From: a virus
Direction: 5' to 3' (one strand)
IMG/VR virus record: IMGVR_UViG_3300025138_000306
Coordinates: 1 to 25,870 of that record
Length of the DNA stretch: 25,870 nt
Shown here: in pieces, positions 254 to 25,870 of the stretch
Layout of the letters: every line of letters begins with the position of its first letter
Numbering within the stretch: position 1 is the stretch's first letter
Program-made: the position numbers and the translations under genes
The notes under the pieces: generated by a model
Seen by the model: the letters and a program-made list of their open reading frames with translations, nothing else
Databases searched by the model: none
What the model was told of the DNA's origin: nothing

Positions 254-1027
254 ATGGCTATAGATCTAAATGCAATGCGAGCTAAGCTCGATCAATCAAA
301 AAACGGTGGAAAATCCTCCGGACGCAAGAGTACAATGTGGAAACCAAGTGCTGGTGACCAAATGATTCGTATTCTACCAACAGCGGATGGCGATCCGTTC
401 CGTGAGTTCCACTTTCACTACAATGTAGGGAAGAACCCTGGAATTTACTGCAACAAGCGAAACGACGGTGGCGAATGTGCCATCTGTGATTTCGCATCAA
501 AGCTTTGGAGGGATGGCGTTCAAAGTGACGACCAGAACCTCAAAAACGAAGCTAAGAAAATGTTCGCTCGAAAGCGATATTATTCACCTGTTCTTGTTCG
601 TGGAAACGAAGCCGACGGTGTAAAAATCTGGGCTTATGGTAAGACCGCTTATGAAACCCTTTTGGGCTATGTATTGGATCCTGACTACGGAGACATCACT
701 GACTCTCAAACAGGAACTGATATTAAGTTAACTTATTCAATTCCCGGAACACCTGGTTCTTTTCCAAAGACAGTCTTGCAACCCCGCCGACGTCCATCTA
801 TCTTATGTGACGACAGCATCGCAGACTGTCAACAATTGTTGGATTCCGTTCCTGATATCGACAACTTGTTTGATGTCAAGACTCCGGAAGAAGTGCAAAC
901 TCTGCTGGATGGTTACCTGTCCTCCGACGGTTCAGCAGAGTCCTCTTCCAATGAGACTCAACAATATAAAAAGAAAACAGGAGCAGACGTGGATAAAGCA
1001 TTCGCCGCTTTCATGAGTGAAGACTGA
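254..1027 (+). CDS. gp32-like single-stranded DNA-binding protein
   Basis: This 257-residue protein resembles T4 gp32, which coats single-stranded DNA during replication, recombination and repair. The zinc-binding set is recognisable: H53, C66, C75 and C78, with the same 12-residue gap between His and first Cys and the same C-x2-C as in T4 gp32. A basic N-terminal region (K11-K30) precedes the core. The C terminus is acidic and short (ends in FMSED), as in gp32, where the tail recruits replication partners. At 257 residues it is shorter than T4 gp32 (301). The start is fixed by AGGAG eight bases upstream. It is transcribed from P1 and followed by a hairpin at 1055. Neighbouring recombinase, exonuclease and helicase fit a T4-style replication set. 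Confidence 0.9.
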   Translation: MAIDLNAMRAKLDQSKNGGKSSGRKSTMWKPSAGDQMIRILPTADGDPFREFHFHYNVGKNPGIYCNKRNDGGECAICDFASKLWRDGVQSDDQNLKNEAKKMFARKRYYSPVLVRGNEADGVKIWAYGKTAYETLLGYVLDPDYGDITDSQTGTDIKLTYSIPGTPGSFPKTVLQPRRRPSILCDDSIADCQQLLDSVPDIDNLFDVKTPEEVQTLLDGYLSSDGSAESSSNETQQYKKKTGADVDKAFAAFMSED

Positions 1028-2507: not shown

Positions 2508-3119
2508 ATGTTATGGAAAAGAAATATTGACAGTAATATAAAATCTGTTGAATTAAGAAGCAGCCCGGTCATCATCAGAGTTAACAAGTTTGATGAAAAA
2601 TCAGCGAAGGAGTTCGCAGAGAAGATGGCTTCGGCACACAATACGGGTCAATCTGTTATTCCAGTAATCATTGATTCTTATGGAGGTCAAGTCTACTCTC
2701 TCATGAGTATGATCGCATCCATCAAGAACTCTGAATTACCGGTAGCAACCATAGTCGAAGGAAAGGCTATGAGTTGTGGAGTCATTCTGTTCTCTTGTGG
2801 AACCGAAGGATATCGATACATAACAGAAGACGCAACATTGATGATCCACGATGTAAGTTCCGCCTCATGGGGTAAGAACTCGGAGATTCAAGCAAGTGCA
2901 GAAGAGGTGAAGCGTTTGAATGAGAAGATTTACAAAATCCTATCAGCAAACTCAAACAAGTCAGAGAAATGGTTTAACAAACAGTTAAACGAGAAAGGTC
3001 GTGCCGACTGGTTCATTGAATCTAAAGAAGCGATTGACCTTGGATTAGCCGACAAAGTTGGTATGCCAAAATTAGAAATAAATATAAAATTAGATATAAA
3101 ACTAAAGGAGGTAACATGA
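2508..3119 (+). CDS. ClpP-like (S14) serine protease
   Basis: The 203-residue protein matches the ClpP/crotonase fold protease family. The likely catalytic triad is intact: S89 in GKAMSCG, H114 in MIHD and D167 in ADWF, followed by the EAIDLGLADKVG segment typical of ClpP. The DSYGG loop at 56-60 is the usual oxyanion glycine segment. Phages use such enzymes either as head-maturation proteases or as stand-alone peptidases. No capsid or portal gene is adjacent, so the role here is open; processing of tagged virion proteins is one possibility. ATG 2508 is chosen over an upstream GTG because AAAGGAG lies six bases before it. The stop overlaps the next start (ATGA). Confidence 0.8.
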   Translation: MLWKRNIDSNIKSVELRSSPVIIRVNKFDEKSAKEFAEKMASAHNTGQSVIPVIIDSYGGQVYSLMSMIASIKNSELPVATIVEGKAMSCGVILFSCGTEGYRYITEDATLMIHDVSSASWGKNSEIQASAEEVKRLNEKIYKILSANSNKSEKWFNKQLNEKGRADWFIESKEAIDLGLADKVGMPKLEINIKLDIKLKEVT

Positions 3120-3364: not shown

Positions 3365-3551
3365 TTTATTAATAACAATGTTCTTGGCCTGTGGCGACAA
3401 AGAAGAAGAACAAGATACAGCAGTAGATGCTGAAGAGACAACCGAAGAAACTGCTGAAGAAGTAGAAGACACGGCATCCGAAGGTTCCGAAGAGGAAACT
3501 GAAGAAGAGACTGAGGAGACCGAAGAAGGCTCTGAAGAAGGTGAAGAGTAA
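3357..3551 (+). CDS. small, very acidic Glu-rich lipoprotein
   Basis: The 64-residue protein repeats the plan of the preceding gene: short uncharged signal, lipobox-like FLAC with C12, then GDKEEE and a nearly all-acidic tail of Glu, Thr, Asp and Ser. It is probably disordered and surface-anchored. Alignment of the two signal regions at protein and DNA level suggests a tandem duplication with diverged tails. GAAGGAG precedes the start. Its stop TAA shares one base with the RecA/UvsX start (TAATG), so translation of the recombinase is coupled to a lipoprotein. Glu-rich ACGDKEE-type tails occur on lipoproteins of some delta-proteobacteria, but that is only a weak host hint. Confidence 0.7.
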   Translation: MISLLITMFLACGDKEEEQDTAVDAEETTEETAEEVEDTASEGSEEETEEETEETEEGSEEGEE

Positions 3552-4657
3552 TGACCAAAGCAGGTAAGATTGACATTAGTTCTATGAAGAAGTTCATCAA
3601 TAAAAAAGTTGGACTGAACATAGCACACAACCTTAGTGAAGACAATCCTACTGCTGTCACAGAATGGATTCCAACTGGTTCACGCTGGTTGGACTCTATT
3701 ATCTGTCGAGGTAAGATGGCTGGAATTCCCGTTGGGAAAGCCACTGAGATCGCCGGCTTATCATCAGCAGGCAAATCTTACATGGCTTGTCAAATTGCTG
3801 CGCAAGCACAAAAGAAAGGCCATTTTGTCATTTACTTTGATGCGGAGTCTGCTATTGACCCGGCATTCCTATTGAGTTCTGGCGTTGATATTGAAAACCT
3901 CTTCATGTATGTTCAGGGAGTTTCCGTCGAGAAAGTTCTTGAGACAATTGAAGACCTGATGACGGAGTATTCGGAGACAAAATTTTTGTTTATTTGGGAC
4001 TCAATCGCAGCTACCTCTTCCGAGAAAGAGTTGGAAAGTGATTTTAATCCCCAGTCAACAATGGCCGTGAAACCAAGGATTTTTGCGAAAGCATTTCCTA
4101 AATTGATTATTCCGTTAGCAGATCACCAATGCACAATGTTGTTGATTAATCAGCTTAAGACCAACATAACTTCAAACATTGCTGAGGCAATGACCACGCC
4201 CTACATTGCTCCAGGCGGTAAGGCAATCGGTTATTTCTGTTCGCTACGCATTTGGTTAACAAAGCGAAAAGCGAAGGCTTCTTATGTAACTAATGGAACC
4301 GGTGTTCGCATTGGCTCTGAGGTAAAAGTTAAGGTTGAGAAGTCTCGCTTCGGATCTGAGGGGCGCACATGTGGCTTTAAGATCTTGTGGGGAAATACGG
4401 TCGGAATTCAAGATGAAGAATCGTGGTTGGAAGCACTAAGGGTCTCAGGTTCTGATCGCTTTAAGCCGGGAGCTTGGAACAAGATTTATGACGCGAATGG
4501 AAAGGAATTCAAATTCCAGAAGTCGCAATGGATCAACAAGTTGCAAGAACCAGAGTTTCGTTCTGTTGTGCTTGACATCATGGATGAGGAAATCATAAGA
4601 AAATTTGAGTCTGAAGGCAAGAACTTTGGACTTGAAGGTGAGGACGAAGAAGGTTAG
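3551..4657 (+). CDS. UvsX/RecA-type recombinase
   Basis: A 368-residue strand-exchange ATPase. Walker A is GLSSAGKS at 69-76, the catalytic glutamate is probably E99 in YFDAES, and Walker B is FLFIWDS with D150. A later LLINQLKTNI segment corresponds to the DNA-contacting L2 area. The C terminus is acidic, as in many RecA/UvsX proteins. Length is close to T4 UvsX (391) and E. coli RecA (353); the divergent P-loop and neighbouring gp32-like SSB favour the phage UvsX type. It would form filaments on single-stranded DNA for recombination-dependent replication and repair. The start overlaps the upstream lipoprotein stop by one base. A strong terminator follows at 4676. Confidence 0.9.
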   Translation: MTKAGKIDISSMKKFINKKVGLNIAHNLSEDNPTAVTEWIPTGSRWLDSIICRGKMAGIPVGKATEIAGLSSAGKSYMACQIAAQAQKKGHFVIYFDAESAIDPAFLLSSGVDIENLFMYVQGVSVEKVLETIEDLMTEYSETKFLFIWDSIAATSSEKELESDFNPQSTMAVKPRIFAKAFPKLIIPLADHQCTMLLINQLKTNITSNIAEAMTTPYIAPGGKAIGYFCSLRIWLTKRKAKASYVTNGTGVRIGSEVKVKVEKSRFGSEGRTCGFKILWGNTVGIQDEESWLEALRVSGSDRFKPGAWNKIYDANGKEFKFQKSQWINKLQEPEFRSVVLDIMDEEIIRKFESEGKNFGLEGEDEEG

Positions 4658-5412: not shown

Positions 5413-6276
5413 ATGATAGATATAATTGATTTATATAGAAATTTTTGTGCTAGCAAAGGAGTTCAATTCCAATTGGACGACAATGTCCGGCCTTACGACA
5501 ATACAACATTGTTTTGCCCTGCAGGAATGCAGCAATTCAAAGAGAGGTTTAAGTCGGAAGAGACGGGAACACTAGCAAACGTGCAGTCATGCATAAGACT
5601 CAATGACCTTGAGGAGATAGGTGATGGAACACACTATCTTTATTTTGATATGATAGGGTTATTCTCTTTCAGGACTCTTACGGTTCAGCAGTCAGTTGAC
5701 TTTTGGATGGAGTTCGTCGAAGACACCCTAGGGATCAAAGTAGATTACGTTACCATCCATCCGGATAAGATGGAGGATTGGAAAAGCCTTTACGAAAACT
5801 ATGATGTAGAAGTCAGACCAGATGAAGAGTGCAAGTGGACCGATGGACAAATTGGTGGCTACTGCACAGAGTTCTTCAAGGACGACGTCGAGATTGGAAA
5901 CATCGTAAACCCACTTGGAACGTGCATTGACGTCGGATTTGGTCTTCAAAGACTTAACATGTTCGTCAATGGAGATAACGAAGAGACAAGGGAAGAGATC
6001 CTAATCCAAGCATGCGAGAAGCTTCTTTACTCTGGTTATTACCCAAGCAACAAGGAGCAAGGTTATGTGTTTCGCAAGCTTCTCAGGGAACTCTACAGAT
6101 TGGGTTCAGATTGGGATAATGAACACTACCTTAAGGAGAAGAAGAGACAAGACAAGGTTGTAGAAAACTACAATAGAAACAAGGACAAACCCAAGTTTAA
6201 AGACAAGTCCAACGAGTGGTGGTTCGACACCATGGGAATAGATATTGATTTCATAAAAAGTCTGGAGGACAAATGA
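5413..6276 (+). CDS. stand-alone alanyl-tRNA-synthetase-like catalytic domain
   Basis: This 287-residue protein aligns along the class II core of alanyl-tRNA synthetase. FCASKG (11-16) corresponds to FFHSKG; TLFCPAGMQQFKERF (32-46) to the LFTNAGMNQFKDVF region; CIRLNDLEEIG (60-70) and YFDMIGLFSF (77-86) to motif 2, where the enzyme has HNDLENVG and FFEMLGNFSF; GGYCTEFF (148-155) to GPCTEIF; EIGNIV (160-165) to EIWNIV; and DVGFGLQRL (173-181) to motif 3 DTGMGLERI. The tRNA-binding, editing and C-Ala domains of the roughly 875-residue enzyme are absent, and the basic C-terminal tail (235-266) is unlike it. It may adenylate an amino acid and transfer it to an unknown acceptor. ATG 5413 is set by GGAGGA; the next gene overlaps its stop (ATGA). 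Confidence 0.75.
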   Translation: MIDIIDLYRNFCASKGVQFQLDDNVRPYDNTTLFCPAGMQQFKERFKSEETGTLANVQSCIRLNDLEEIGDGTHYLYFDMIGLFSFRTLTVQQSVDFWMEFVEDTLGIKVDYVTIHPDKMEDWKSLYENYDVEVRPDEECKWTDGQIGGYCTEFFKDDVEIGNIVNPLGTCIDVGFGLQRLNMFVNGDNEETREEILIQACEKLLYSGYYPSNKEQGYVFRKLLRELYRLGSDWDNEHYLKEKKRQDKVVENYNRNKDKPKFKDKSNEWWFDTMGIDIDFIKSLEDK

Positions 6277-7223
6277 AAAATGTAATAATAATCGATGCGC
6301 TGAACATGTTTTTGCGTAGCTATGTAATAAGCCCACAGCTGGACAAAAATGGTATGCCCATCGGGGGCACCATAGGCTTCTTAAAGAGCCTTCAGAAGGT
6401 AGCTAGGGACTTTACTGCTGATGAGGTTATAATAGCCTGGGATGGCCATGAAGGCTCTCAGAGACGACGTTCGATGAACAAGAACTACAAAGGCGGAAGA
6501 AAACCGGTGAGATTCAACCGAAGAATGATAGATATACCTGAAGACAAAGAAGAGGCCAATAAAGGATATCAGCAAATTAGACTTATGGAATATCTAAATG
6601 AAATGCCTGTGATCCAACTTGTTGCAGACTTTACGGAAGCGGATGATATTATTGCGTTAGTAATTAATCATCCAAAGTATGCCGGTTGGAAAAAGACAAT
6701 CATATCAAGTGACAAAGACTTTTTTCAATTATGTCGAGATGATGTTCAAATTTACCGACCAATTCAGAAAAAAATTGTAACTGAACAAACTGTCGTAGAA
6801 CAATTCAAGATTCACCCAAAGAACTTCGCATTAGCACGAGCCATCGCTGGCGATTCGTCGGACAATTTACCGGGGATCAAAGGAGCAGGTCTTAAGACTA
6901 TTGCGAAGCGGTTCCCCTATCTCATCAGAGAGGACGAATATGAAGTCGGAGATATTGTAAAGGACTGTGTGATGGTCGGAAAAAAGCTTAAGATCCACGA
7001 GAACATTCAAAAGGATGAGCAGTTAATCAAAGACAACTATGCGATCATGCAATTACAATTCCCAAACATCAGGCCGATGAATCGAGAGATCATCAAAAAA
7101 GCAATCAATGACTTCGAACCAACATTCAATAAAATAAAGTTCACACAAATGCTCTTTGTTGATGATGCCGGCCATCTCAACTTCACAGACTTGCAGTTGG
7201 TGTTTCGAAGAATAAATAAGTGA
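6273..7223 (+). CDS. 5'-3' exonuclease / RNase H (FEN family)
   Basis: The 316-residue protein is a flap-endonuclease-family nuclease like T4 RNase H (305 residues) and the 5' nuclease of Pol I, removing RNA primers and flaps from lagging strands. Metal-site segments are clear: IIIDALN at the N terminus (D8), AWDG (55-58) followed by a basic helical-arch region RRRSMNKNYKGGRKP, EADD near residue 122, SSDKDF, and GDSSDNLPGIKGAGLKT, the helix-hairpin-helix for DNA binding. GGAGGACAA precedes the start, which overlaps the AlaRS-like stop. It shares promoter P2 and is followed by P3. Residues 42-52 resemble the fragment at 5278-5314. Confidence 0.92.
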   Translation: MKNVIIIDALNMFLRSYVISPQLDKNGMPIGGTIGFLKSLQKVARDFTADEVIIAWDGHEGSQRRRSMNKNYKGGRKPVRFNRRMIDIPEDKEEANKGYQQIRLMEYLNEMPVIQLVADFTEADDIIALVINHPKYAGWKKTIISSDKDFFQLCRDDVQIYRPIQKKIVTEQTVVEQFKIHPKNFALARAIAGDSSDNLPGIKGAGLKTIAKRFPYLIREDEYEVGDIVKDCVMVGKKLKIHENIQKDEQLIKDNYAIMQLQFPNIRPMNREIIKKAINDFEPTFNKIKFTQMLFVDDAGHLNFTDLQLVFRRINK

Positions 7224-7288: not shown

Positions 7289-8644
7289 ATGAACGAATTT
7301 AACAAGAGCGAAACCTTTATGCGTTTCGGAAAAAACTTTCAAGAAAACTTATGCCAACTCATGTTGGAGGATCGACCATTTTTCGATCAAATTACGGAAG
7401 TTTTAGATATCACCTTCTTTGAAAAGAAGTATTTGCAAATTTTCGCACAAACATTGATTAACTATCGCAACAAATATAATACTCATCCAAATAACGAAGT
7501 GATGATGACTTTGTTGCGAACAGAATTAAATCACCATGATAAAGCTACGCAAAAAGATGTGAGAGAGTTCTACGCTCGTATTCATACATCTGACGGAGTA
7601 GAAGAACTTGATTTCATCAAGGACAAATCTATTGATTTCTGTCGTAAACAAGTCTTAAAGCAAGCAATGATGAAATCAGCAGCGTTGTTAAAGTCTTCCT
7701 CCTTTGAGGAAATAGAGAAACTTATCAAAGATGCACTCGTCCTTGGTACAGATAATAATTTTGGTCATGACTTCCGTAAAGATCTACTCAAGCGTTTTGA
7801 ATCTGTAACAAGAGATCCTATTTCAACAGGATGGGCTCGAATGGATGAGATTGTTAAGGGCGGCCTTGGCAAATCAGAACTTGGTGTAGTTGTAGCTCCA
7901 ACAGGTGCTGGAAAGTCAATGGTTCTCGTTCACTTGGCCACACAGGCTCTCTTGCAAGGCAAGACTGTCGTTTATTACACTTTGGAACTTAAAGATACGA
8001 CAGTTGGTCAACGATTTGATTGCTGTATAACTGACGTACCACTTCAGGAACACAAAGAGAGACAAAAAGAAATCGTCAATAAAGTAAAAGACCTTCAAGG
8101 TACTCTAATTATCAAAGAGTATCCAACCAAATCAGCTTCCGTTTCAACTCTCAAAAATCACATTGAGAAATTACGGAAGAGAGGCATTGAGCCTGATATG
8201 ATCTTGGTTGACTATGCCGACTTATTGCGACCTCCACGGGCAACCGGAGAGAAGCGTCATGAGTTAGAGGAGACCTACGAAGGTCTTCGTGGGCTTGCTC
8301 AGTCTTATGAGATCCCTTGTTGGACTGCATCTCAAACAAACCGAGGAGGTCTCAATGCTGAAGTTATCACTATGGAAGCGATCTCTGAAGCGTTTAACAA
8401 GTGTTTCGTTGCTGACTTTATCTTTTCTCTATCGAGAACTGTGCAAGACAAGCAAGCGAACAAGGGCCGCCTTTTCGTTGCGAAGAATCGGAACGGCCCA
8501 GATGGCCTTGTGTTTGATGCTTTCGTTGATTGGTCTGACGTTACCATCAAGATATTGGACAGAGACGAATCAGCAGAGAGAATGCAATCAACGTCGGATG
8601 CGTTGCAAATGCTCAAAGACAAATATGCGAAAGCAGGAAAATAA
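7289..8644 (+). CDS. DnaB/gp41-class replicative helicase
   Basis: This 451-residue RecA-fold helicase would unwind the fork ahead of the polymerase. The N-terminal domain (1-165) is helical. Residues 177-192 lead into Walker A APTGAGKS (203-210), YYTLEL follows at 229-234, Walker B is ILVDYADLL (305-313, D308), and SQTNRGG is the DnaB-like H3/H4 segment. The arginine-containing AKNRNG motif near 402-407 fits the intersubunit region. Length is near T4 gp41 (475). The start is set by GGAGGACAA. No primase or loader is identifiable nearby. Confidence 0.92.
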   Translation: MNEFNKSETFMRFGKNFQENLCQLMLEDRPFFDQITEVLDITFFEKKYLQIFAQTLINYRNKYNTHPNNEVMMTLLRTELNHHDKATQKDVREFYARIHTSDGVEELDFIKDKSIDFCRKQVLKQAMMKSAALLKSSSFEEIEKLIKDALVLGTDNNFGHDFRKDLLKRFESVTRDPISTGWARMDEIVKGGLGKSELGVVVAPTGAGKSMVLVHLATQALLQGKTVVYYTLELKDTTVGQRFDCCITDVPLQEHKERQKEIVNKVKDLQGTLIIKEYPTKSASVSTLKNHIEKLRKRGIEPDMILVDYADLLRPPRATGEKRHELEETYEGLRGLAQSYEIPCWTASQTNRGGLNAEVITMEAISEAFNKCFVADFIFSLSRTVQDKQANKGRLFVAKNRNGPDGLVFDAFVDWSDVTIKILDRDESAERMQSTSDALQMLKDKYAKAGK

Positions 8645-8668: not shown

Positions 8669-10525
8669 ATGGATTTAGAGAAGAAGATTTTATCGGACAT
8701 CACCGTCCACATGAAGTATGCACGATACATGGAAAAGGAACACCGCCGAGAGAACTGGGACGAATTAGTTACCAGAAACATGCAAATGCACATCAAAAAA
8801 TTTCCCAGTTTAGAACAAGAAATTCGTGAGAACTATAAGTTTGTCTACGACAAGCAGGTCTTACCATCTATGCGTTCAATGCAGTTCGGAGGAAAGCCAA
8901 TTGAGGTTTCTCCAAACCGCATCTTTAATTGCGCATACACACCTGCAGATGATCCCCGAGTGTTCGGAGAGATCATGTTCCTACTGCTTGGAGGAACAGG
9001 CGTCGGCTATTCAGTACAACACCATCACGTAGAAAGTCTCCCTGAGATACATAGACCATCATCAAAACGAACACGTAGGTTTCTAGTTGGAGACTCTATC
9101 GAAGGTTGGGCCGATTCCGTGAAGGCTCTAATGATGTCTTACTTTAAAGGCACATCCCGATTACGTTTTGACTTTTCAGACATCCGTCCGAAAGGTGCGA
9201 GACTAGTTACATCCGGTGGTAAGGCACCCGGTCCACAACCACTTAGAGAATGTCTAGTAAAAATAGAGGGAATTTTAGATGCGAAAGAAAACGGTGACAA
9301 ACTCACTACTATTGAGGTTCATGATATCATCTGCTATATTGCGGATGCGGTTTTGGCGGGGGGTATTCGCCGCGCCGCCCTTATATCTCTATTCAGTGCT
9401 GATGACGAAGATATGCTCTCGGCAAAAGCAGGGGCATGGTGGGAACTCAACCCTCAACGAGGACGAGCAAACAACTCTGTAGTCGTAATGCGACATAGAA
9501 TTGATAAGCCAACTTTCATGAGTCTATGGAAGCGTGTCGAAGAGTCTCGATCAGGAGAGCCCGGATTCTACTTTTCCAATGATAAAGATTGGGGATGCAA
9601 TCCATGTTGTGAGATTGGTTTAAGACCAAACCAGTTCTGCAACTTGGTTGAGATAAACGTCTCAGATGTAAACACCCAAGACGAGTTAAATGCTCGCTCT
9701 CGTGCAGCATCGTTCATAGGAACGCTTCAGGCGTCCTACACGGACTTTCATTACCTTAGACCTGTCTGGCGTCGTACAACCGAGAAAGATGCGCTCATCG
9801 GCGTCTCAATGACCGGCATTGCATCTGGCGGTGTGCTTGAGTTAAACATGACTGAGGCCTCTTTGGAAATCTCAAAGATGAACCGTCAAGTCGCAATGCA
9901 AACCGGTATCAATCAGGCTGCACGACAAACATGTGTTAAACCAGCAGGAACAACTTCTCTTACTCTTGGTACATCAAGCGGAATTCACGCTTGGCACAAT
10001 GACTATTATATTAGAAGACTTCGCGTTGGAAAGGGTGAAGCAATCTATTCGTATCTCGTCAATAACCTGCCTGAGCTCATCGAGGACTGTCGCTTTAGAC
10101 CACACGACACTGCTATCCTATCTGTGCCGCAAAAAGCTCCTGAAGGGGCAATAACGCGCCACGAAACAGCACTTGATTTGCTCGAGAGAGTAAAAAAGGT
10201 TTCTTGTGAGTGGATCAAGCCCGGCCACAAGAAAGGGAACAACACTCACAACGTCTCAGCTACAGTAAGCATCAAAGATGATGAGTGGGAAACTGTTGGA
10301 GAGTGGATGTGGACTAACCGTGGAGTCTACAATGGCCTAAGCGTGCTCCCGATGGATTTGGGCAGTTACGTCCAAGCCCCTTATGAAGACTGTGACGTTG
10401 AGACATATGAAAAGATGCTCTCGTTGGTCAAAAATGTTGACCTAGACCTAGTTATTGAAATAACAGATGAGACAGATCTGTCGGGTGAAATTGCATGTGG
10501 CGGTGGAGCCTGTGATATATTTTAA
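8669..10525 (+). CDS. class II (adenosylcobalamin-dependent) ribonucleotide reductase
   Basis: The 618-residue protein reduces ribonucleotides to deoxyribonucleotides in the cytoplasm. The redox pair is C88 (FNCAY) and C324 (QFCNLVE); the thiyl site is N311-P-C313-C-E315. The C terminus carries C610 and C615 in ACGGGACDIF, matching the shuttle cysteines of monomeric class II enzymes such as Lactobacillus RTPR (739 residues). GGTGVGYSVQ, GGIRRAALIS and KPAGTTSLTLG are further family landmarks. There is no NrdB-like radical subunit or NrdG activase nearby, which also favours class II and a need for cobalamin from the host. An ACAGGAG site precedes the start. It lies between helicase and Hc1-like genes and would pair functionally with ThyX at 11947. 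Confidence 0.92.
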   Translation: MDLEKKILSDITVHMKYARYMEKEHRRENWDELVTRNMQMHIKKFPSLEQEIRENYKFVYDKQVLPSMRSMQFGGKPIEVSPNRIFNCAYTPADDPRVFGEIMFLLLGGTGVGYSVQHHHVESLPEIHRPSSKRTRRFLVGDSIEGWADSVKALMMSYFKGTSRLRFDFSDIRPKGARLVTSGGKAPGPQPLRECLVKIEGILDAKENGDKLTTIEVHDIICYIADAVLAGGIRRAALISLFSADDEDMLSAKAGAWWELNPQRGRANNSVVVMRHRIDKPTFMSLWKRVEESRSGEPGFYFSNDKDWGCNPCCEIGLRPNQFCNLVEINVSDVNTQDELNARSRAASFIGTLQASYTDFHYLRPVWRRTTEKDALIGVSMTGIASGGVLELNMTEASLEISKMNRQVAMQTGINQAARQTCVKPAGTTSLTLGTSSGIHAWHNDYYIRRLRVGKGEAIYSYLVNNLPELIEDCRFRPHDTAILSVPQKAPEGAITRHETALDLLERVKKVSCEWIKPGHKKGNNTHNVSATVSIKDDEWETVGEWMWTNRGVYNGLSVLPMDLGSYVQAPYEDCDVETYEKMLSLVKNVDLDLVIEITDETDLSGEIACGGGACDIF

Positions 10526-10836: not shown

Positions 10837-11118
10837 ATGCATTTTGAACCACACAACCGACACCTATGGATCTTACCGTTGAACGAAAAGAAAGAAGACA
10901 AAGAAGCACCACTCTTTGTGATGCCTGAAGAATACCAACCCCCCAAGTCTCCATATATTATAGGAGAGGTGATAGGTATGGCTGAAGACTGCTCCATCTC
11001 ATTAAAGATCGGAGACTCGATCATAGCAGATAGAACTACGGTTCAGGAGATAAAAGCCGGATCTGAGACTATTTACGTCGTTAAAGAAAATTATGTCTAC
11101 GGGAGACTAGAAGAATGA
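10837..11118 (+). CDS. GroES-like co-chaperonin
   Basis: This 93-residue protein has the GroES plan: NRHLWILPL near the N terminus for the usual DRVLVKPL, a mobile-loop-like segment EKKEDKEAPLFVMPEE, then YIIGEVIGM for GEVVAVG, LKIGDSII for VKVGDRVL, and an end IYVVKENYVYGRLEE for YLILREEDILAVIE. Phage co-chaperonins such as T4 gp31 replace GroES on host GroEL to fold large capsid proteins. ATG 10837 is preferred over the in-frame GTG 10813 because GGAGG lies just before it and the GTG lies in the hairpin. The stop overlaps the next start (ATGA). Confidence 0.82.
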   Translation: MHFEPHNRHLWILPLNEKKEDKEAPLFVMPEEYQPPKSPYIIGEVIGMAEDCSISLKIGDSIIADRTTVQEIKAGSETIYVVKENYVYGRLEE

Positions 11119-11946: not shown

Positions 11947-12651
11947 ATGAAAGAAATAAAACTTTACGGAGACGGTATTGGCAAGGTCTCTTATATCCAA
12001 CATGTTGGAGATGATAAGATGATAGCTAATGCCGCTCGTGTGTCCTTTGGTCAAGATAACACCAAGCCCTTAACTAAAAAAGATAAGGGTTTGATTAAGT
12101 ATTTGATCAAGCATAGGCACACGTCACCATTCGAGCACAACTCGATTACATTTATGTTTGAAGTTCCAATGTTCGTAAGGTCTCAGCACATGAGACACCG
12201 GACTTGGGCTTACAATGAAATCTCACGACGATACACTGAAATTGACCTGAAGTTCTATGAACCAAAGGCTTTCAGAACTCAACATGAGAGCAACCGTCAA
12301 GCTTCCAATCTAGATGGCTTGATTGATCCAGTAATTACACCACGGTTTGCCGACACTTACATTAAGTCATCAGACGCCATGGTTGCTTTTCACAAGCATG
12401 CGTTGGATCTATTCAACCATTTGATCGCTAAAGGAGTTTGTCGAGAGCAAGCGAGAGGAGTTCTTCCTCAAAACCTTTATGCGAAGTATTACGGAACTGT
12501 TAACTTGTCGAACCTACTTAAGTTTATAGACCTTCGCACTCATGAAGGTGCCCAATGGGAAATACAACAGGTAGCAAAATCATGTTTAGAGATCGCAGAA
12601 GAAATCTGGCCTTATTCAATTGGTGCTTATCGTGATTTGCGAGGGACCTAA
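11947..12651 (+). CDS. thyX: flavin-dependent thymidylate synthase ThyX
   Basis: The 234-residue protein carries the ThyX signature R83-H84-R85 then seven residues to S93 (RHRTWAYNEISRRY), which binds dUMP and FAD. The preceding HTSPFEHNSITF segment (58-69) is also typical. It makes dTMP from dUMP with methylene-tetrahydrofolate and NADPH, complementing RNR. Alanine replaces the serine often seen at motif position 6 (A88), while the RHRX7S core is intact. GAGGA precedes the start. The next small gene begins inside its 3' end. Confidence 0.93.
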   Translation: MKEIKLYGDGIGKVSYIQHVGDDKMIANAARVSFGQDNTKPLTKKDKGLIKYLIKHRHTSPFEHNSITFMFEVPMFVRSQHMRHRTWAYNEISRRYTEIDLKFYEPKAFRTQHESNRQASNLDGLIDPVITPRFADTYIKSSDAMVAFHKHALDLFNHLIAKGVCREQARGVLPQNLYAKYYGTVNLSNLLKFIDLRTHEGAQWEIQQVAKSCLEIAEEIWPYSIGAYRDLRGT

Positions 12652-18880: not shown

Positions 18881-19825
18881 ATGATTAACAATTACAACTT
18901 AGGCTATGCCTGCATCAACAGCGAACTTTCATCGCTCAAAGTAAAGGTATCAACCAACCGCACAATGCGCAAGAAGACATTCCAAGAGAAAGGCTTGGAC
19001 TATGTATCCGAGATCATCCTACAGAACGTCACAGACCTGCTAGCCATCCTTCAGTGGAATGCGAAGCACGACATTCACTTCTTCCGCATCTCTTCAGAGA
19101 TTTTCCCATGGGCTTCAGAGTATGAGATGGAAGACCTTAAAGACTTCGACGCTATTGAAGAAGCCCTTTACGAAGCCGGCCTGTTTGCTAATGAGAACGA
19201 CATTCGTCTCACATGCCATCCCGGCCCCTTCAACAAACTTTGTTCTCCAAATGAGCAGGTTGTACAAAACACTATCAAAGACCTCGAGGTTAATGGTAAG
19301 ATGATGGACCTTTTGTGTCAACCTCGCTCTACTTGGGCAAAGATCAACATTCATGTCGGTGCGGCTTACAACGACAAACCCAAAGCCATGGCGGATTTCT
19401 GCAAGAACTTCGCACGCTTATCTGACGCAGTGAAGTCACGCTTGACCGTGGAGAACGACGACAAGGAAAGTCTCTACTCAACTAAAGAACTCTACGACGG
19501 TATCTTCAGCGTCATCAACATCCCTATCGTTCACGACTATCATCATCACACAATGTGTACTGGTGGCTTGTCTCAACAGGAAGCACTCGAACTCGCTCTA
19601 AAGACATGGGGTGACGTTGTCCCTGTCGTCCACTACAGCCAGTCACGAGCAGTAGAGCATGATAACCCTAAGATCCGTCCACAAGCGCACAGCGACAGCT
19701 ATTGGACGCCTATCGACACATTCGGTCACTGCATGGACATCATGCTCGAGTGTAAGCACAAAGAAATCGGTCTATTCAAGATGCGTGAGCTAATGGCTGG
19801 CTCATCTTGCATGGCTGCGAAATAA
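18881..19825 (+). CDS. uvsE: UV damage endonuclease UvsE/UVDE
   Basis: This 314-residue TIM-barrel enzyme nicks DNA 5' to UV photoproducts and similar lesions, starting alternative excision repair. It shows the expected path: NYNLGYACIN at the N terminus, FFRISSEIFPW (about 67-77), RLTCHPGPFNKL (107-118), KINIHVG, RLTVEND (187-193), PIVHDYHHH and VPVVHYSQSR, which supply the His/Asp/Glu metal ligands. Its length agrees with the family. Set by a strong GGAGGACAA under its own promoter. Light protection is sensible for a surface-water phage. Codon use here is more GC-rich than in the surrounding AT-rich small genes. Confidence 0.9.
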   Translation: MINNYNLGYACINSELSSLKVKVSTNRTMRKKTFQEKGLDYVSEIILQNVTDLLAILQWNAKHDIHFFRISSEIFPWASEYEMEDLKDFDAIEEALYEAGLFANENDIRLTCHPGPFNKLCSPNEQVVQNTIKDLEVNGKMMDLLCQPRSTWAKINIHVGAAYNDKPKAMADFCKNFARLSDAVKSRLTVENDDKESLYSTKELYDGIFSVINIPIVHDYHHHTMCTGGLSQQEALELALKTWGDVVPVVHYSQSRAVEHDNPKIRPQAHSDSYWTPIDTFGHCMDIMLECKHKEIGLFKMRELMAGSSCMAAK

Positions 19826-21557: not shown

Positions 21558-21586
21558 TTGACAAAGAAAGCATGCCGTGTTACATT
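21558..21586 (+). promoter_or_regulatory. promoter P6 for the DNA polymerase gene
   Basis: TTGACA at 21558-21563, spacer 17, TACATT at 21581-21586, TG at 21578-21579. The upstream TTTTTAC matches P1, P2 and P4. Predicted leader about 24 bases. Confidence 0.8.
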
Positions 21587-21616
21587 ATTAACATCACACA
21601 AGTCTTGGAGGACAAT

Positions 21617-24600
21617 ATGGAATTAAAGAAAGAACAATTTGTAAACTTGCACGGTCACTCGTGCTTTAGCCTATTCGATGGGTTTGGTTTCCCACAGGAA
21701 CACATGGACTTTGCTCACGGCAATGGTTCAAAAGCTTTAGCACTAACGGATCACGGATCAATGAATGGCCTGTCTTATCAGTTGCTACGAGCAAAAGAGA
21801 TGAAAGCTGATGGTGTTGACTTCAAGCCAATCTTTGGTGTCGAGGCTTACTATATCGATTCACTAGAAGAGTGGAAGACATTACGCAATGAAATCGCAGC
21901 AGACAAGAAGCGAGCAAAAGAGATTGATAAGTCTGATTCCGCTATGGTAGTTGAAGACGAGCAACGAAATGATAAGAGAGCATTGGCTCGTAAGCGTCAC
22001 ATCGTTCTTCTCGCACAAAATCAGAAAGGTCTCGAGAATATCTATGAGATGATCTCTAAGTCTTACAGTGGAGACTATTTCTATCGCAAGCCACGCATTG
22101 ACTGGGAATTATTAAAGAAGCACCAAGAGGGCGTAATCGTCCTTACAGCGTGCCTTGGAGGTATCGCAGCTGGTTCTATGTGGAAACTACAAGAAGAAGG
22201 CGAGAGCGCAATCGTTGATGATATGAGAGGTAACCTTGCCAAGTTCAAGGAGGTCTTTGGAGATAGATTTTATGCAGAATTACAATGGAATAATATTCCT
22301 GAACAACATCTCTTGAATCGCTGCCTAATTAAGGTAGCAACCCAACTTGATCTAAAGCTAGTTTCAACTTGTGATTCTCACTATCCAAGCCCAGATGCAT
22401 GGAGAGACAGAGAAGTATACAAGAGGCTTGGATGGCTTGGGAAAATGCCTGCATGGATGGACGATGAGATACCAGAAACAGTCGAGGATATAGGATATGA
22501 ACTTTACCCGAAAAACGCTCAAGAAATGTGGGAATCATATAAACGATATAGTGATGATCTCAATGTTACTTACGACGATGCTTTGGTTGCTGACTCAATC
22601 ACAAACACAACCCACATCGCTTTCGAGCAAATTGAAGATTTTCTTCCTGACACTTCTGTTCAGCTTCCTTCTTTTATGGTACCGAATGATAAGAGCGCTG
22701 ACGAAGCTCTCGAAGACCTTGCTGAGAAAGCCTTGGCTCTTTATCTTCGGGGCTCAGACAAGACAAAGAAAAGACATTACAGAAAAAGACTAGCGGAGGA
22801 ACTTGATGTTATCTCGTCTCAAAAATTTAGTGAATACTTCTTGGCGACCAAAGCAATTACTGATTTCTCATGGAATTATACTTTTGTTGGCCCTGCTCGC
22901 GGTAGTGCAGCTGGTTCGTTACTTGCTTTCTTACTAAAGATTACGCAAATCGACCCTATGGAATGGGACCTTCCCTTTGAACGTTTCCTTACTCGTGGCT
23001 CCACCGGCTTTCCGGACATCGATATTGACTTTGGAGACAACTCGCTTATCAAAGACAAGATGGTTGAGGAATGGGGAGAGGACTCTGTTGCGTTCATCTC
23101 GAACTACAACACGATGCAACTTTCTTCGTTGATCAAAGACATCTCCAAGCGTGAGGATGTTCCGTTTACAGAAGTAAACGTTGTAACGAAAGCTATGTTC
23201 GCAGAGGCAACACCAATTGCGAAGAAGAAGCGCGGTATCCGTGCTGGTGTTTACACTCCAACCTTTCAAGAGGTTTGTGACTATTCGGAAACGCTTCAAG
23301 GCTTCTTCCGTAAATATCCACACATTCAAGCACAAGTTCTTGGTCTTGTTGGTTCTCCACGCTCTATTGGTCGTCATGCGGCTGGTGCGATCATCGGAGA
23401 CTATCTTCCGAGCAAGATGCCCTTGATAACATCAAAAGGCGTTAGGCAGACACCATGGGCCGAAGGGCAGAATGTTCGACACCTTGAACCATTGGGCTTC
23501 ATCAAGTTTGATATCCTTGGTCTCGAGACTCTTAAAATGTTCGAGGATGCGATCCAACGAATCTTAATCAAAGAGGGCAATCGCAACCCAAGCTATGAAG
23601 ACTGTAAAGACTGGTACGTGAAAAATCTCCACCCATCAAGTCTTGATTTGAACAATCAAGAAGTGTACAAGAAAGTATTTCACTTAGGAAACTATGCTGG
23701 TATTTTTCAATTTATGAACAGTGGTATGCAGCGACTTGGTACTAGTGCGAGAGTATCTTCAATAGAAGAGATCGCAACTGTATCAGCCATCTTTAGACCG
23801 GGGCCACTATCCGCTGGTGTTGACAAGATGTACGTCAAAGCAAAAGAAGGTGTTGAGGAGCCAGAGTATGACCACCCTCTTATCGAAGATGTGCTTGGTA
23901 AGACCTTTGGATTGATCGTGTTCCAAGAGGACATCATGAACTTGGTGAATGTTCTTGGAGACAAGATTACAATGACGGATGCGAACGTGTTGCGTAAGTT
24001 GTTGACCAAGAAAGGTTTGTCCGAGACAAAGATGAGAAAGAAAAAGGATCTTTACGAACGTTTCGTTAAAGGTTGTGAGAAGAAGGGAATGTCTTTCACT
24101 CAAGCAAAGTCTTTGTGGGATAAGATGGAATACTTCTCTGGTTATGGTTTCTCAAAGAACCATGCGATTCCTTACTCTATCATCTCATACCAATGTGCTT
24201 GGATGCAGACTTATCATCAAGATGAGTGGATTGCCTCCTTCCTTGACCACGAACCAGACAAGCGTAAAGAGGTGGCCATTAACATCGCTCGATCTTTCGG
24301 ATATAGCGTTAAATCTTTAGACATCAACACCTCCGGCAAACGCTGGGAGATTGTAGACGGGCAACTAGTCTCTCCTTTGACAACGGTCAAAGGCTTAGGT
24401 ATGGCTGCGATTGATGAGATCGTACACAAGCGCCCATTCTCGTCCGTAGAGGACCTTCTCTTTGATAAGGGTGTGGTAGCACGGAAAGTCAACAAGAAGT
24501 CCTTAGATGCGATGTGTCGAGCCGGAGCGATGGAATCCTTGATGGATGACCGCTTCTTCGGAGACAAACACTTCTGGTCTGCGGTTGTTGTTGATAAGCC

Positions 24601-25039
24601 GAAGAACAAGAAGAAACTAAATGCTAACATTGAGAAATATAAAGATGAAGGCACATTCACAAAAGGTGAAAGAATCAGTCACCTACAAGCATTGACTGGG
24701 ATTTATCCAATCAATATGGTTGTTCCTGTGAAAGCATATCAATTCTTTGAGTTACAAGGTATCAAGCCCATTTCTGAGTATGACCGAGAACTAGGCAAGG
24801 CATGGTGTGTCCCTACAGAAGTTACAACTCGCAAGACAAAGACTGGAAAATCTTACTATCAAGTAACTGTGATAGACTCCAGTATGAAGACACAGAGAAT
24901 TAATTGTTGGGGTGTTGATCCAAGTAGGGATTTTATTTACACTCATAGACTCTACGTTCTAGAGTGGCCAAAATACAATGCTACTTGGGGATTCTCTACA
25001 ACTGGTGGGCTGTCTAGGAATTGGAAGTTACTAGGATGA
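21617..25039 (+). CDS. dnaE: DNA polymerase III alpha subunit (DnaE-type) with intact PHP site
   Basis: This 1140-residue replicative polymerase is close to bacterial DnaE in length (E. coli 1160). The PHP domain keeps all nine usual metal ligands: H12, H14, D21, H46, E76, H128, C179, D253 and H255. Such sites give 3'-5' exonuclease activity in some bacteria and are lost in E. coli. The polymerase core has GPARGSAAGS (425-434), the catalytic PDIDIDF (466-472) and FIKFDILGLETL with the third Asp; then IFRPGPLSAG and FQEDIM. A helix-hairpin-helix region and a C-terminal OB-fold (TKTGKSYYQVTVIDSS) follow. No intein or insertion is seen. ATG 21617 is set by TTGGAGGACAAT. The last bases overlap the next start. 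Confidence 0.95.
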   Translation: MELKKEQFVNLHGHSCFSLFDGFGFPQEHMDFAHGNGSKALALTDHGSMNGLSYQLLRAKEMKADGVDFKPIFGVEAYYIDSLEEWKTLRNEIAADKKRAKEIDKSDSAMVVEDEQRNDKRALARKRHIVLLAQNQKGLENIYEMISKSYSGDYFYRKPRIDWELLKKHQEGVIVLTACLGGIAAGSMWKLQEEGESAIVDDMRGNLAKFKEVFGDRFYAELQWNNIPEQHLLNRCLIKVATQLDLKLVSTCDSHYPSPDAWRDREVYKRLGWLGKMPAWMDDEIPETVEDIGYELYPKNAQEMWESYKRYSDDLNVTYDDALVADSITNTTHIAFEQIEDFLPDTSVQLPSFMVPNDKSADEALEDLAEKALALYLRGSDKTKKRHYRKRLAEELDVISSQKFSEYFLATKAITDFSWNYTFVGPARGSAAGSLLAFLLKITQIDPMEWDLPFERFLTRGSTGFPDIDIDFGDNSLIKDKMVEEWGEDSVAFISNYNTMQLSSLIKDISKREDVPFTEVNVVTKAMFAEATPIAKKKRGIRAGVYTPTFQEVCDYSETLQGFFRKYPHIQAQVLGLVGSPRSIGRHAAGAIIGDYLPSKMPLITSKGVRQTPWAEGQNVRHLEPLGFIKFDILGLETLKMFEDAIQRILIKEGNRNPSYEDCKDWYVKNLHPSSLDLNNQEVYKKVFHLGNYAGIFQFMNSGMQRLGTSARVSSIEEIATVSAIFRPGPLSAGVDKMYVKAKEGVEEPEYDHPLIEDVLGKTFGLIVFQEDIMNLVNVLGDKITMTDANVLRKLLTKKGLSETKMRKKKDLYERFVKGCEKKGMSFTQAKSLWDKMEYFSGYGFSKNHAIPYSIISYQCAWMQTYHQDEWIASFLDHEPDKRKEVAINIARSFGYSVKSLDINTSGKRWEIVDGQLVSPLTTVKGLGMAAIDEIVHKRPFSSVEDLLFDKGVVARKVNKKSLDAMCRAGAMESLMDDRFFGDKHFWSAVVVDKPKNKKKLNANIEKYKDEGTFTKGERISHLQALTGIYPINMVVPVKAYQFFELQGIKPISEYDRELGKAWCVPTEVTTRKTKTGKSYYQVTVIDSSMKTQRINCWGVDPSRDFIYTHRLYVLEWPKYNATWGFSTTGGLSRNWKLLG

Positions 25040-25272: not shown

Positions 25273-25301
25273 TTGACAACCACAAACAAAGATGTTATAT
25301 T
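25273..25301 (+). promoter_or_regulatory. promoter P7 for the DNA methyltransferase gene
   Basis: TTGACA at 25273-25278, spacer 17, TATATT at 25296-25301, TG at 25293-25294. The predicted start near 25308 is the first base of the GGAGG ribosome site, giving a leader of about 11 bases. Confidence 0.82.
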
Positions 25302-25318
25302 ACAATATGGAGGAAAAA

Positions 25319-25870
25319 ATGAATAAAATACAATTAGGAGACTCTCGAGAACTCCTCAAGCAACTCGAGGACAAAAGTATTGATGCGGTCTACTTTGACC
25401 CACCTTTCAATTCAAACAGGAAATATAGACTAACGTCATCTGACGACAGCATCGGCTTCGATGATATATTTAAATCAGATGATGAGTACGTGAAGCTCGT
25501 AGAGCCAATGGTTAAGGAGTGTGCGAGAGCCATCAAGAAGGATGGATCATTCTTTTTCCACATCTCAGCTGAGCAGATGCTTATCCCGCAAATGATTTGC
25601 TCAAGATTTTTTTCAAGAGTTCAGCCCATTTTTTGGAAACGTTCGAGATCAAAGAACAATGTAAAGACAAAGCTGGGTGCATGTACTGATGTTATCTTCT
25701 GGTGCTCTCATATACCAAAGCCAAAGTTCAACATGGTTTATCAACCACTCGATTCTTACTATGCGGAGAACTCTTACAAGAACAAGGATGCTCGAGGGAA
25801 CTATGCTTTGGGGCATGTTTGCTACACAAGAACCCAGGCTCCAGACAAATCAAAGTCAGATAGGTATTAT
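25319..25870 (+). CDS. DNA methyltransferase (N6-adenine/N4-cytosine type), 3' end missing
   Basis: An open frame of 184 codons that runs off the window. It begins MNKIQLGDSRELLKQLEDK and continues to AVYFDPPFNSNRKYR; DPPF at 27-30 is the catalytic motif IV of beta-class amino-methyltransferases, and the GDS followed by LL-x-LEDK matches their opening. A later LGACTDVIFWCS segment is typical for the group. It would transfer a methyl group from SAM to adenine or cytosine in DNA. Motif I (FxGxG) would lie beyond the window edge in this permuted class. GGAGG lies six bases before the start. Protection from restriction or regulation are both possible. Confidence 0.85.
   Translation, partial: MNKIQLGDSRELLKQLEDKSIDAVYFDPPFNSNRKYRLTSSDDSIGFDDIFKSDDEYVKLVEPMVKECARAIKKDGSFFFHISAEQMLIPQMICSRFFSRVQPIFWKRSRSKNNVKTKLGACTDVIFWCSHIPKPKFNMVYQPLDSYYAENSYKNKDARGNYALGHVCYTRTQAPDKSKSDRYY

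Follow-up and report, generated by a model that had tools for sequence, protein, structure and literature searches.

A phage DnaE polymerase with a complete PHP metal site as a candidate self-proofreading replicase beside a second, exonuclease-less polymerase

The stretch analyzed here comprises positions 1 to 25,870 of the virus record IMGVR_UViG_3300025138_000306 (25,870 nucleotides; "the window") and encodes a DnaE, i.e., a family C DNA polymerase, at 21617-25039. We consider it rather probable that this DnaE is the accurate bulk replicase of a large marine phage, which would proofread its own product by its PHP domain and would act beside a small second polymerase, divPolA1, without a clamp set of the T4 type. 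The case is sequence-based and is built on the domains of the protein, its metal ligands and their conservation, a second polymerase in related phages, and undetected DnaQ and clamp genes. Both the enzyme type and the phage group have been described before, and the window is mostly an ordinary example within the published group. The window genome is known as a 25.9-kb fragment only and ten relative records, four of them of 159-187 kb, were searched.

The open reading frame (ORF) is real and intact (1140 amino acids, aa), and the assignment to DnaE made in the original prediction was borne out by four Pfam matches above cut-off (PHP, 3.8e-30; DNA_pol3_alpha, 2.1e-46; DNA_pol3_finger, 8.1e-30; HHH_6, 5.1e-14). 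The protein falls into phrog_405 of PHROG, 'DNA polymerase', the phage DnaE family (E 9.2e-228), and its top match among solved structures was Taq Pol III alpha (5.5e-91), with the E. coli and M. tuberculosis DnaE next. ATG 21617 was preferred over a longer ORF start at 21572, because GGAGG is found five bases ahead of it. The OB-fold-like region close to the C-terminus was modelled with a predicted local distance difference test score (pLDDT) of about 82-90 for this block; Foldseek matches to OB folds were weak (E 0.02 and worse).

Each of the nine PHP ligands listed in the original prediction, from H12 to H255 (Table 1), was present as claimed. The set reads HHDHEHCDH and fits the motif published for active PHP domains, HHDHEH[C/H]DH (PMC12926913). 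The family was collected by two scans of viral contigs, yielding at least 103 loci, with some contigs occurring in both; 101 loci had a matching ORF and gave 91 distinct sequences, which were aligned with the window protein (92 rows). Among the matches listed, all nine ligands were retained in 89 of the 92 rows, the remaining three being pieces without this region, and the palm aspartates (DDD) were also retained in 89 of 92, the remaining three being incomplete there. In the 87 full-length rows, the PHP region has 290 columns, of which 59 were invariant. Invariance applied to just 14 of 60 H, D, E or C positions of the region, yet to 9/9 ligands (hypergeometric P 1.4e-7; a descriptive value, the rows being related and kinship uncorrected). 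Pairwise identity was about 50-99% among the first 60 of the 87 full rows. The spacing between E76 and H128 (ligands 5 and 6) was 48-58 aa in the full rows; the loop at the equivalent place in M. tuberculosis DnaE1 lies beside the exonuclease site and contributes to activity (PMC5636811).

The PHP domain of M. tuberculosis DnaE1, an enzyme which proofreads, holds three zincs by five His, three Asp/Glu and one Cys (PMC5636811). M. tuberculosis DnaE1 and Thermus Pol III alpha have the same nine-ligand PHP as the window protein, at ~22-24% identity in the structure matches. D253 is the counterpart of D226, the proposed catalytic residue in M. tuberculosis, and is invariant in the family. The complete ligand set makes exonuclease activity of the window DnaE likely, without proving it. 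Phage PHP proofreading as a topic was not found in the titles and abstracts of the literature searched, and the term 'PHP' is absent from the main text of the paper on polymerase swapping (PMC11348598); the window DnaE offers a clear test of PHP proofreading in phages.

DnaE was matched in 1356 isolate records using tblastn; none exceeded 60% identity, and the best reached ~30% among the matches listed. Out of these records, 21 isolates were picked by hand for spread (a non-random sample); in KLEB27-3 and AM11 the gene is broken, and its N-terminal part was used to score the PHP. All nine ligands were found in 17 of the 21 isolates and the PHP was broken in four, which rules out a complete PHP as a rarity among phage DnaE. 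Thus, the set taken as a mark of proofreading in the original prediction agrees with the published motif, but it is common in phage DnaE and not distinctive. An RNase_T (DnaQ-like) gene was present in all four phages with a broken PHP and adjoins the polymerase gene in three of them (association P 0.021, kinship uncorrected). Pairing of a broken PHP with a DnaQ-like proofreader is a known rule in bacteria (PMC3666897), and the broken-PHP phages extend this rule to viruses.

Of 13 window genes compared, 10 matched the relative G001 (183.9 kb) in the same order and with 77-90% identity and, therefore, G001 was regarded as a fair proxy for the window genome; a 404-aa gene, the alanyl-tRNA-synthetase-like gene and a GIY-YIG gene had no match there. 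The record G002 (187.4 kb) is apparently complete and permuted, since one gene spans both record ends. Profiles for RNase_T, DNA_pol_A_exo1, the Rv2179c-like exonuclease, gp45 (two models), gp44 and the bacterial clamp were run in the ten relative records. No RNase_T match above cut-off was obtained in the ten records (a single sub-threshold piece in G003 had E 0.013 and 13 bits), and DNA_pol_A_exo1 and the Rv2179c-like exonuclease gave 0/10. An exonuclease of the DnaQ type, not seen in the window in the original prediction, was accordingly undetected in the relatives as well. The T4 clamp gp45 was found in 0/10 records with two profiles, the PF09116 search being one without a true positive control, and the bacterial clamp likewise in 0/10. 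As controls, the bacterial-clamp profile was positive in 10 of 14 control genomes, all above cut-off, and the T4 clamp family profile recognises T4 gp45. With the gp45 and bacterial clamp profiles empty in ten records, we rejected the idea that clamp genes of T4 must lie elsewhere in the genome because the replication set is T4-like. For the loader, phrog_168 (gp44) matched weakly (E < 0.01) in 4 of 10 records. The matched genes are PhoH-like (the G002 protein, and by homology its G001 counterpart) or AAA_5 (a G001 protein); those in G003 and G004 were judged to be of the same kinds by frame lengths only. The lack of a clamp noted for the window thus agrees with the profiles, and for the loader there are weak matches, which were PhoH or AAA_5 where checked. 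T4 gp43, gp45, gp44 and gp62 had no phmmer match in G001 and G002, the only two records searched for gp62. Diverged genes for a proofreader, clamp or loader could escape these profiles.

The window and the T4 replisome have a gp32-like single-strand binding protein (SSB), a UvsX-like recombinase and a gp41/DnaB-like helicase in common, whereas gp43, gp45 and gp44/62 have no convincing counterparts in the relatives (phmmer in G001 and G002; profiles in ten records). T4 gp41 found counterparts in G001 and G002 (phmmer, E about 1e-25 to 1e-28) and T4 UvsX in G002 only of these two (1.2e-6). The replication set described earlier as T4-like is so for these three proteins, but the exonuclease is of the FEN type and the T4 clamp set was undetected. 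The window recombinase and helicase match phage families. Further genes of the relatives code for a primase, an SbcD-SbcC-like fusion protein and a PD-(D/E)XK nuclease, and one more is a weak match to a late sigma factor.

The original prediction regarded DnaE as the polymerase of the phage; the gene is intact, but relatives possess another polymerase, of family A and without an exonuclease, whose gene would lie just outside the window. Flavobacterium phage immuto is the closest isolate by terminase, and its small PolA-like protein gp001 matches a protein of roughly 400 aa upstream of SSB in G001 and G002. A gene of this kind precedes SSB in 8 of 11 records. It was not detected in the window, which starts 253 bases before SSB, nor in G008 and G009, whose coordinates fall short of the place. 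In G002, the gene is located at 133685-134887 and SSB follows at 136703. The protein has about 395 aa, and the residues of TGR and of motifs A (LDFNAAEIR or close), B and C (HD) are conserved in 8/8. Its structure model (pLDDT 86) has a Pol I fold and matched KlenTaq (Foldseek, 1.7e-12) and also Klenow. No isolate record matched the protein at 1e-5.

According to Yutin et al. (2024, PMC11348598), divPolA1 occurs in 14 phages around immuto with genomes of 155-190 kb, has a truncated thumb and has lost its exonuclease; all of these phages also have, close to a chaperonin gene, a 'regular' polymerase that belongs to family A, B or C. The small PolA of the relatives is taken to be this divPolA1. 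The relatives (159-187 kb) have the same order of SSB, recombinase, exonuclease and helicase genes as the immuto group, with the divPolA1-like gene upstream. Immuto has SSB, recombinase, exonuclease, helicase, primase and head genes in common with G001 and G002, and its terminase (TerL), major capsid protein and portal are 48%, 50% and 40% identical to those of G002. The DnaE gene of G002 (160381-163908) and its Cpn60 gene (169774-171342) also conform to this layout, chaperonin-60 being about 6-8 kb from the polymerase in G002 and G001 (the G001 copy was identified via its match to the G002 copy). In immuto, the large polymerase is of family A, has 777 aa and includes a 3'-5' exonuclease domain, whereas that of the window belongs to family C. 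We assign the phages to the published Immutovirus/divPolA1 group, whose members have exchanged replicases among families A, B and C (PMC11348598). For Microcystis phage Mel-JY01, no polymerase is annotated in the 50 of 190 kb examined. With its two polymerases, this arrangement lends itself to the question of which one replicates the genome in phages with a swapped replicase.

The canonical β-clamp motif Q..[LMI][FLY] was found nowhere in the window DnaE, and because an internal clamp pentapeptide is missing, the protein was filed as a family C polymerase and not as a bacterial holoenzyme subunit. Among the matches listed, its only sites in the 87 full rows are one position of the fingers (in 75 of them) and the C-terminal tail (in 2). 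A tau-binding domain was not recognised either, few residues following the OB-like region; a profile of that domain was not run. The missing pentapeptide and, apparently, the tau-binding domain set the window protein apart from M. tuberculosis DnaE1 and Thermus Pol III alpha. The C-terminus ends with [FWLM]-x-[LMIVR]-[LMIV] and at most one further residue in 83 of the 87 full rows (among the matches listed). By eye, the window end WGFSTTGGLSRNWKLLG is like the T4 gp43 tail KASLDFLFG, a likeness which is suggestive only; the gp43 tail of T4 binds gp45. The conserved hydrophobic peptide is a candidate clamp hook of DnaE and one lead for further work. The use of a host clamp, as proposed originally, is still a guess, the window protein having just the conserved non-canonical peptide in place of a canonical motif.

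Taken together, DnaE would be the enzyme that makes most of the DNA, and makes it accurately, in a large phage whose head is T4-like, and would self-proofread via a nine-ligand and, by homology, tri-zinc PHP 3'-5' exonuclease, which is proposed because the phage apparently encodes no DnaQ. The two pieces divPolA1 and the FEN-type exonuclease may fill and trim Okazaki fragments in the manner of Pol I, and the C-terminal peptide may hook a clamp from the host or from an unrecognised phage gene. DnaE would then occupy the slot of the proofreading replicase, filled in immuto by the exonuclease-bearing PolA; both would have their own proofreader and divPolA1 none. Since the relatives carry an exonuclease-less divPolA1, the phage probably replicates with two polymerases of which DnaE is the one that proofreads, and PHP proofreading is our best-supported guess for the window DnaE. 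Several points weigh against this. Complete or near-complete ligand sets can be inactive, as in G. kaustophilus PolC and in E. coli Pol III 5mPHP, in which the ligands were restored and no convincing exonuclease was obtained (PMC3666897). An RNase_T gene is also present in 5 of the 17 phages with an intact PHP and, hence, PHP and a DnaQ-like gene are not strictly exclusive. The structure model of DnaE is poor (pLDDT 68, predicted template modelling score 0.41, several PHP ligand stretches < 50). Yutin et al. point out that the conserved replication block adjoins divPolA1, and they see a less obvious role for the 'regular' polymerase (PMC11348598). Finally, all absences were read from relatives, because the window genome is a 25.9-kb fragment.

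It is improbable, in our estimate, that divPolA1 is the main replicase and that DnaE is used for repair, for synthesis linked to recombination or late in replication. Its gene is just upstream of those for SSB, recombinase, exonuclease and helicase in G002, and the window DnaE is about 11 kb beyond the ribonucleotide reductase. Yet divPolA1 is small, and copying a 160-190-kb genome without proofreading would be unusual. Yutin et al. argue from context for an involvement of divPolA1 in replication, but they also describe the truncated thumb and lost exonuclease, and a 'regular' polymerase is always present in the published group, though its family changes (PMC11348598). Retention of the PHP metal site for folding or stability rather than for a proofreading exonuclease is likewise given a low probability. 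In E. coli Pol III, the PHP fold is kept without metals, stability depends on it and the restored ligands brought no convincing activity (PMC3666897); in M. tuberculosis, the E73Q mutant was no longer expressed, and stability was reduced by D23N and by D226N (PMC5636811). This reading has to explain why D253, matching the proposed catalytic residue, is invariant in the family. Moreover, phages with an adjoining DnaQ-like gene tolerate the loss of 7-8 of 9 ligands and, therefore, metals are dispensable for the fold.

We think it rather unlikely that the phage encodes a proofreader, clamp or clamp loader of its own in a form so diverged that the profiles missed it. Several conserved proteins of G001 and G002 were scanned without a family match, the G003 piece scored against RNase_T, the AAA_5 ATPase of the relatives weakly matches the T4 clamp-loader family, and a late-sigma-like gene is present, while T4 late transcription requires the gp45 clamp. 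The positive controls of both clamp profiles, set against 0/10 in the relatives, argue to the contrary, a counterpoint weakened by the PF09116 search. Self-proofreading by DnaE could be part of a wider picture, which we offer tentatively and would not bet on: an uncultured lineage, well represented in viral metagenomes, with a hybrid replisome of T4-type SSB, recombinase and helicase, a PHP DnaE as replicase and a small exonuclease-less PolA that forms a two-piece Pol I with the FEN nuclease, in which the phage's own clamp set is absent and DnaE is tied to a host clamp or other partner by a new C-terminal peptide (its last residues typically being [FW][KR][LM][LI]G).

The origin of the gene was examined in a quick maximum-likelihood tree of 54 rows with long branches, whose deeper joins are unsure. 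Every third locus of L088-L163 (26/76) was used for the bacteria and 15 rows for phage isolates; the split-gene KLEB27-3 and AM11 and four later-sampled phages were left out. The window DnaE family forms one clade (100% support, branch 2.1) and groups with phage DnaEs, apart from the sampled bacterial DnaEs (SH-aLRT, a Shimodaira-Hasegawa-like likelihood ratio test, 95-97%; phage and family rows only). The phage rows require 3 changes in the tree, and two of them sit among bacteria. A recent capture from a bacterial host was ruled out in this quick tree by the 100% family clade joined to other phage DnaEs. The phage DnaEs of phrog_405 resemble the window protein in domain order, PHP ligands and palm aspartates; the family is set apart by its own clade, the 48-58 aa gap and the C-terminal peptide. 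DnaE is 56% identical to its G002 counterpart versus 61-78% for most orthologous neighbours (a 306-aa gene, 52%), perhaps owing to faster evolution or an older swap within the family. Four contigs of bacterial metagenome-assembled genomes (L084-L087) carry DnaE genes that the tree places within the family, and these contigs probably stem from phages or from integrated phage DNA; L087 is near the start of a 2.85-Mb record titled WOR-3 chromosome. In G001 (L019; 45413-50189, minus strand), dnaE is split at the catalytic palm motif by intein-like ends, and the halves are separated by a free LAGLIDADG-type homing endonuclease gene, while the window copy is unbroken. This resembles the published 'fractured' split-intein genes. 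In G001, NrdJ and an SbcCD-like gene are likewise divided, each into two pieces that flank an ORF.

Table 1. Features of the window dnaE gene and of its neighbours (positions in the window; codons by their first base).
Feature	Position	Strand	Remarks
dnaE, family C DNA polymerase (Pol III alpha-like)	21617..25039	+	1140 aa; Pfam, PHROG, solved-structure matches
GGAGG, ribosome-binding-site-like	21607..21611	+	5 bases 5' of ATG 21617
PHP domain	21647..22285	+	residues 11-223; Pfam match
PHP ligand codons	H12 21650, H14 21656, D21 21677, H46 21752, E76 21842		
PHP ligand codons	H128 21998, C179 22151, D253 22373, H255 22379		D253, H255 just past Pfam match
E76-H128 inter-ligand loop	21845..21997	+	51 aa; beside PHP site by homology
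DNA_pol3_alpha (palm)	22709..23521	+	residues 365-635; Pfam
Palm catalytic aspartates	D467 (23015), D469 (23021), D632 (23510)		
Fingers domain	23618..24082	+	residues 668-822; Pfam
Helix-hairpin-helix domain	24299..24553	+	residues 895-979; Pfam
C-terminal beta-rich, OB-fold-like region	24797..24979	+	residues 1061-1121; predicted strands, weak Foldseek
Conserved C-terminal peptide WGFSTTGGLSRNWKLLG	24986..25036	+	candidate clamp- or partner-binding tail
gp32-like single-strand binding protein	254..1027	+	gp32 family 3.4e-13
UvsX/RecA-like recombinase	3551..4657	+	Pfam, PHROG
FEN-type 5'-3' exonuclease	6273..7223	+	Pfam, PHROG
DnaB-like replicative helicase (gp41 counterpart)	7289..8644	+	Pfam, PHROG
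Ribonucleotide reductase, B12-dependent (class II) insertion-domain match	8669..10525	+	Pfam, PHROG
ThyX thymidylate synthase	11947..12651	+	Pfam
UvdE UV endonuclease	18881..19825	+	Pfam

Some further genes were noted in passing. The replication block of the window contains a ClpP-like protease at 2511-3119 (PF00574, 1.1e-27), and the ORF at 5413-6276 matches only the first quarter of the alanyl-tRNA synthetase model PF01411 (6e-21, profile 8-134/552). A DNA methylase gene at 25292-25870 (PF01555, 1.3e-12) runs off the end of the window; in G001, dnaE has a neighbouring ORF that begins similarly. The late-sigma (gp55)-like gene of G002 (45993-46685) is a weak match to phrog_234 (9.3e-5) in a phage without detected gp45. 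Six window ORFs, starting at 11115, 16101, 16832, 17389, 17814 and 18248, have an N-terminal stretch in common (approximately M-x-[IL]-[ST]-x-[EKR]-x-L-x-x-[IL]-I-x-E-x-L), which resembles a shared tag with a possible part in packaging or targeting; more such ORFs occur in relatives. A 221-aa protein of G002 (32319-32984) has metallopeptidase-type matches below threshold (score/cut-off: PF07737, 26.9/27.4 bits; PF06167, 21.2/26.2 bits) and perhaps has a zinc peptidase fold.

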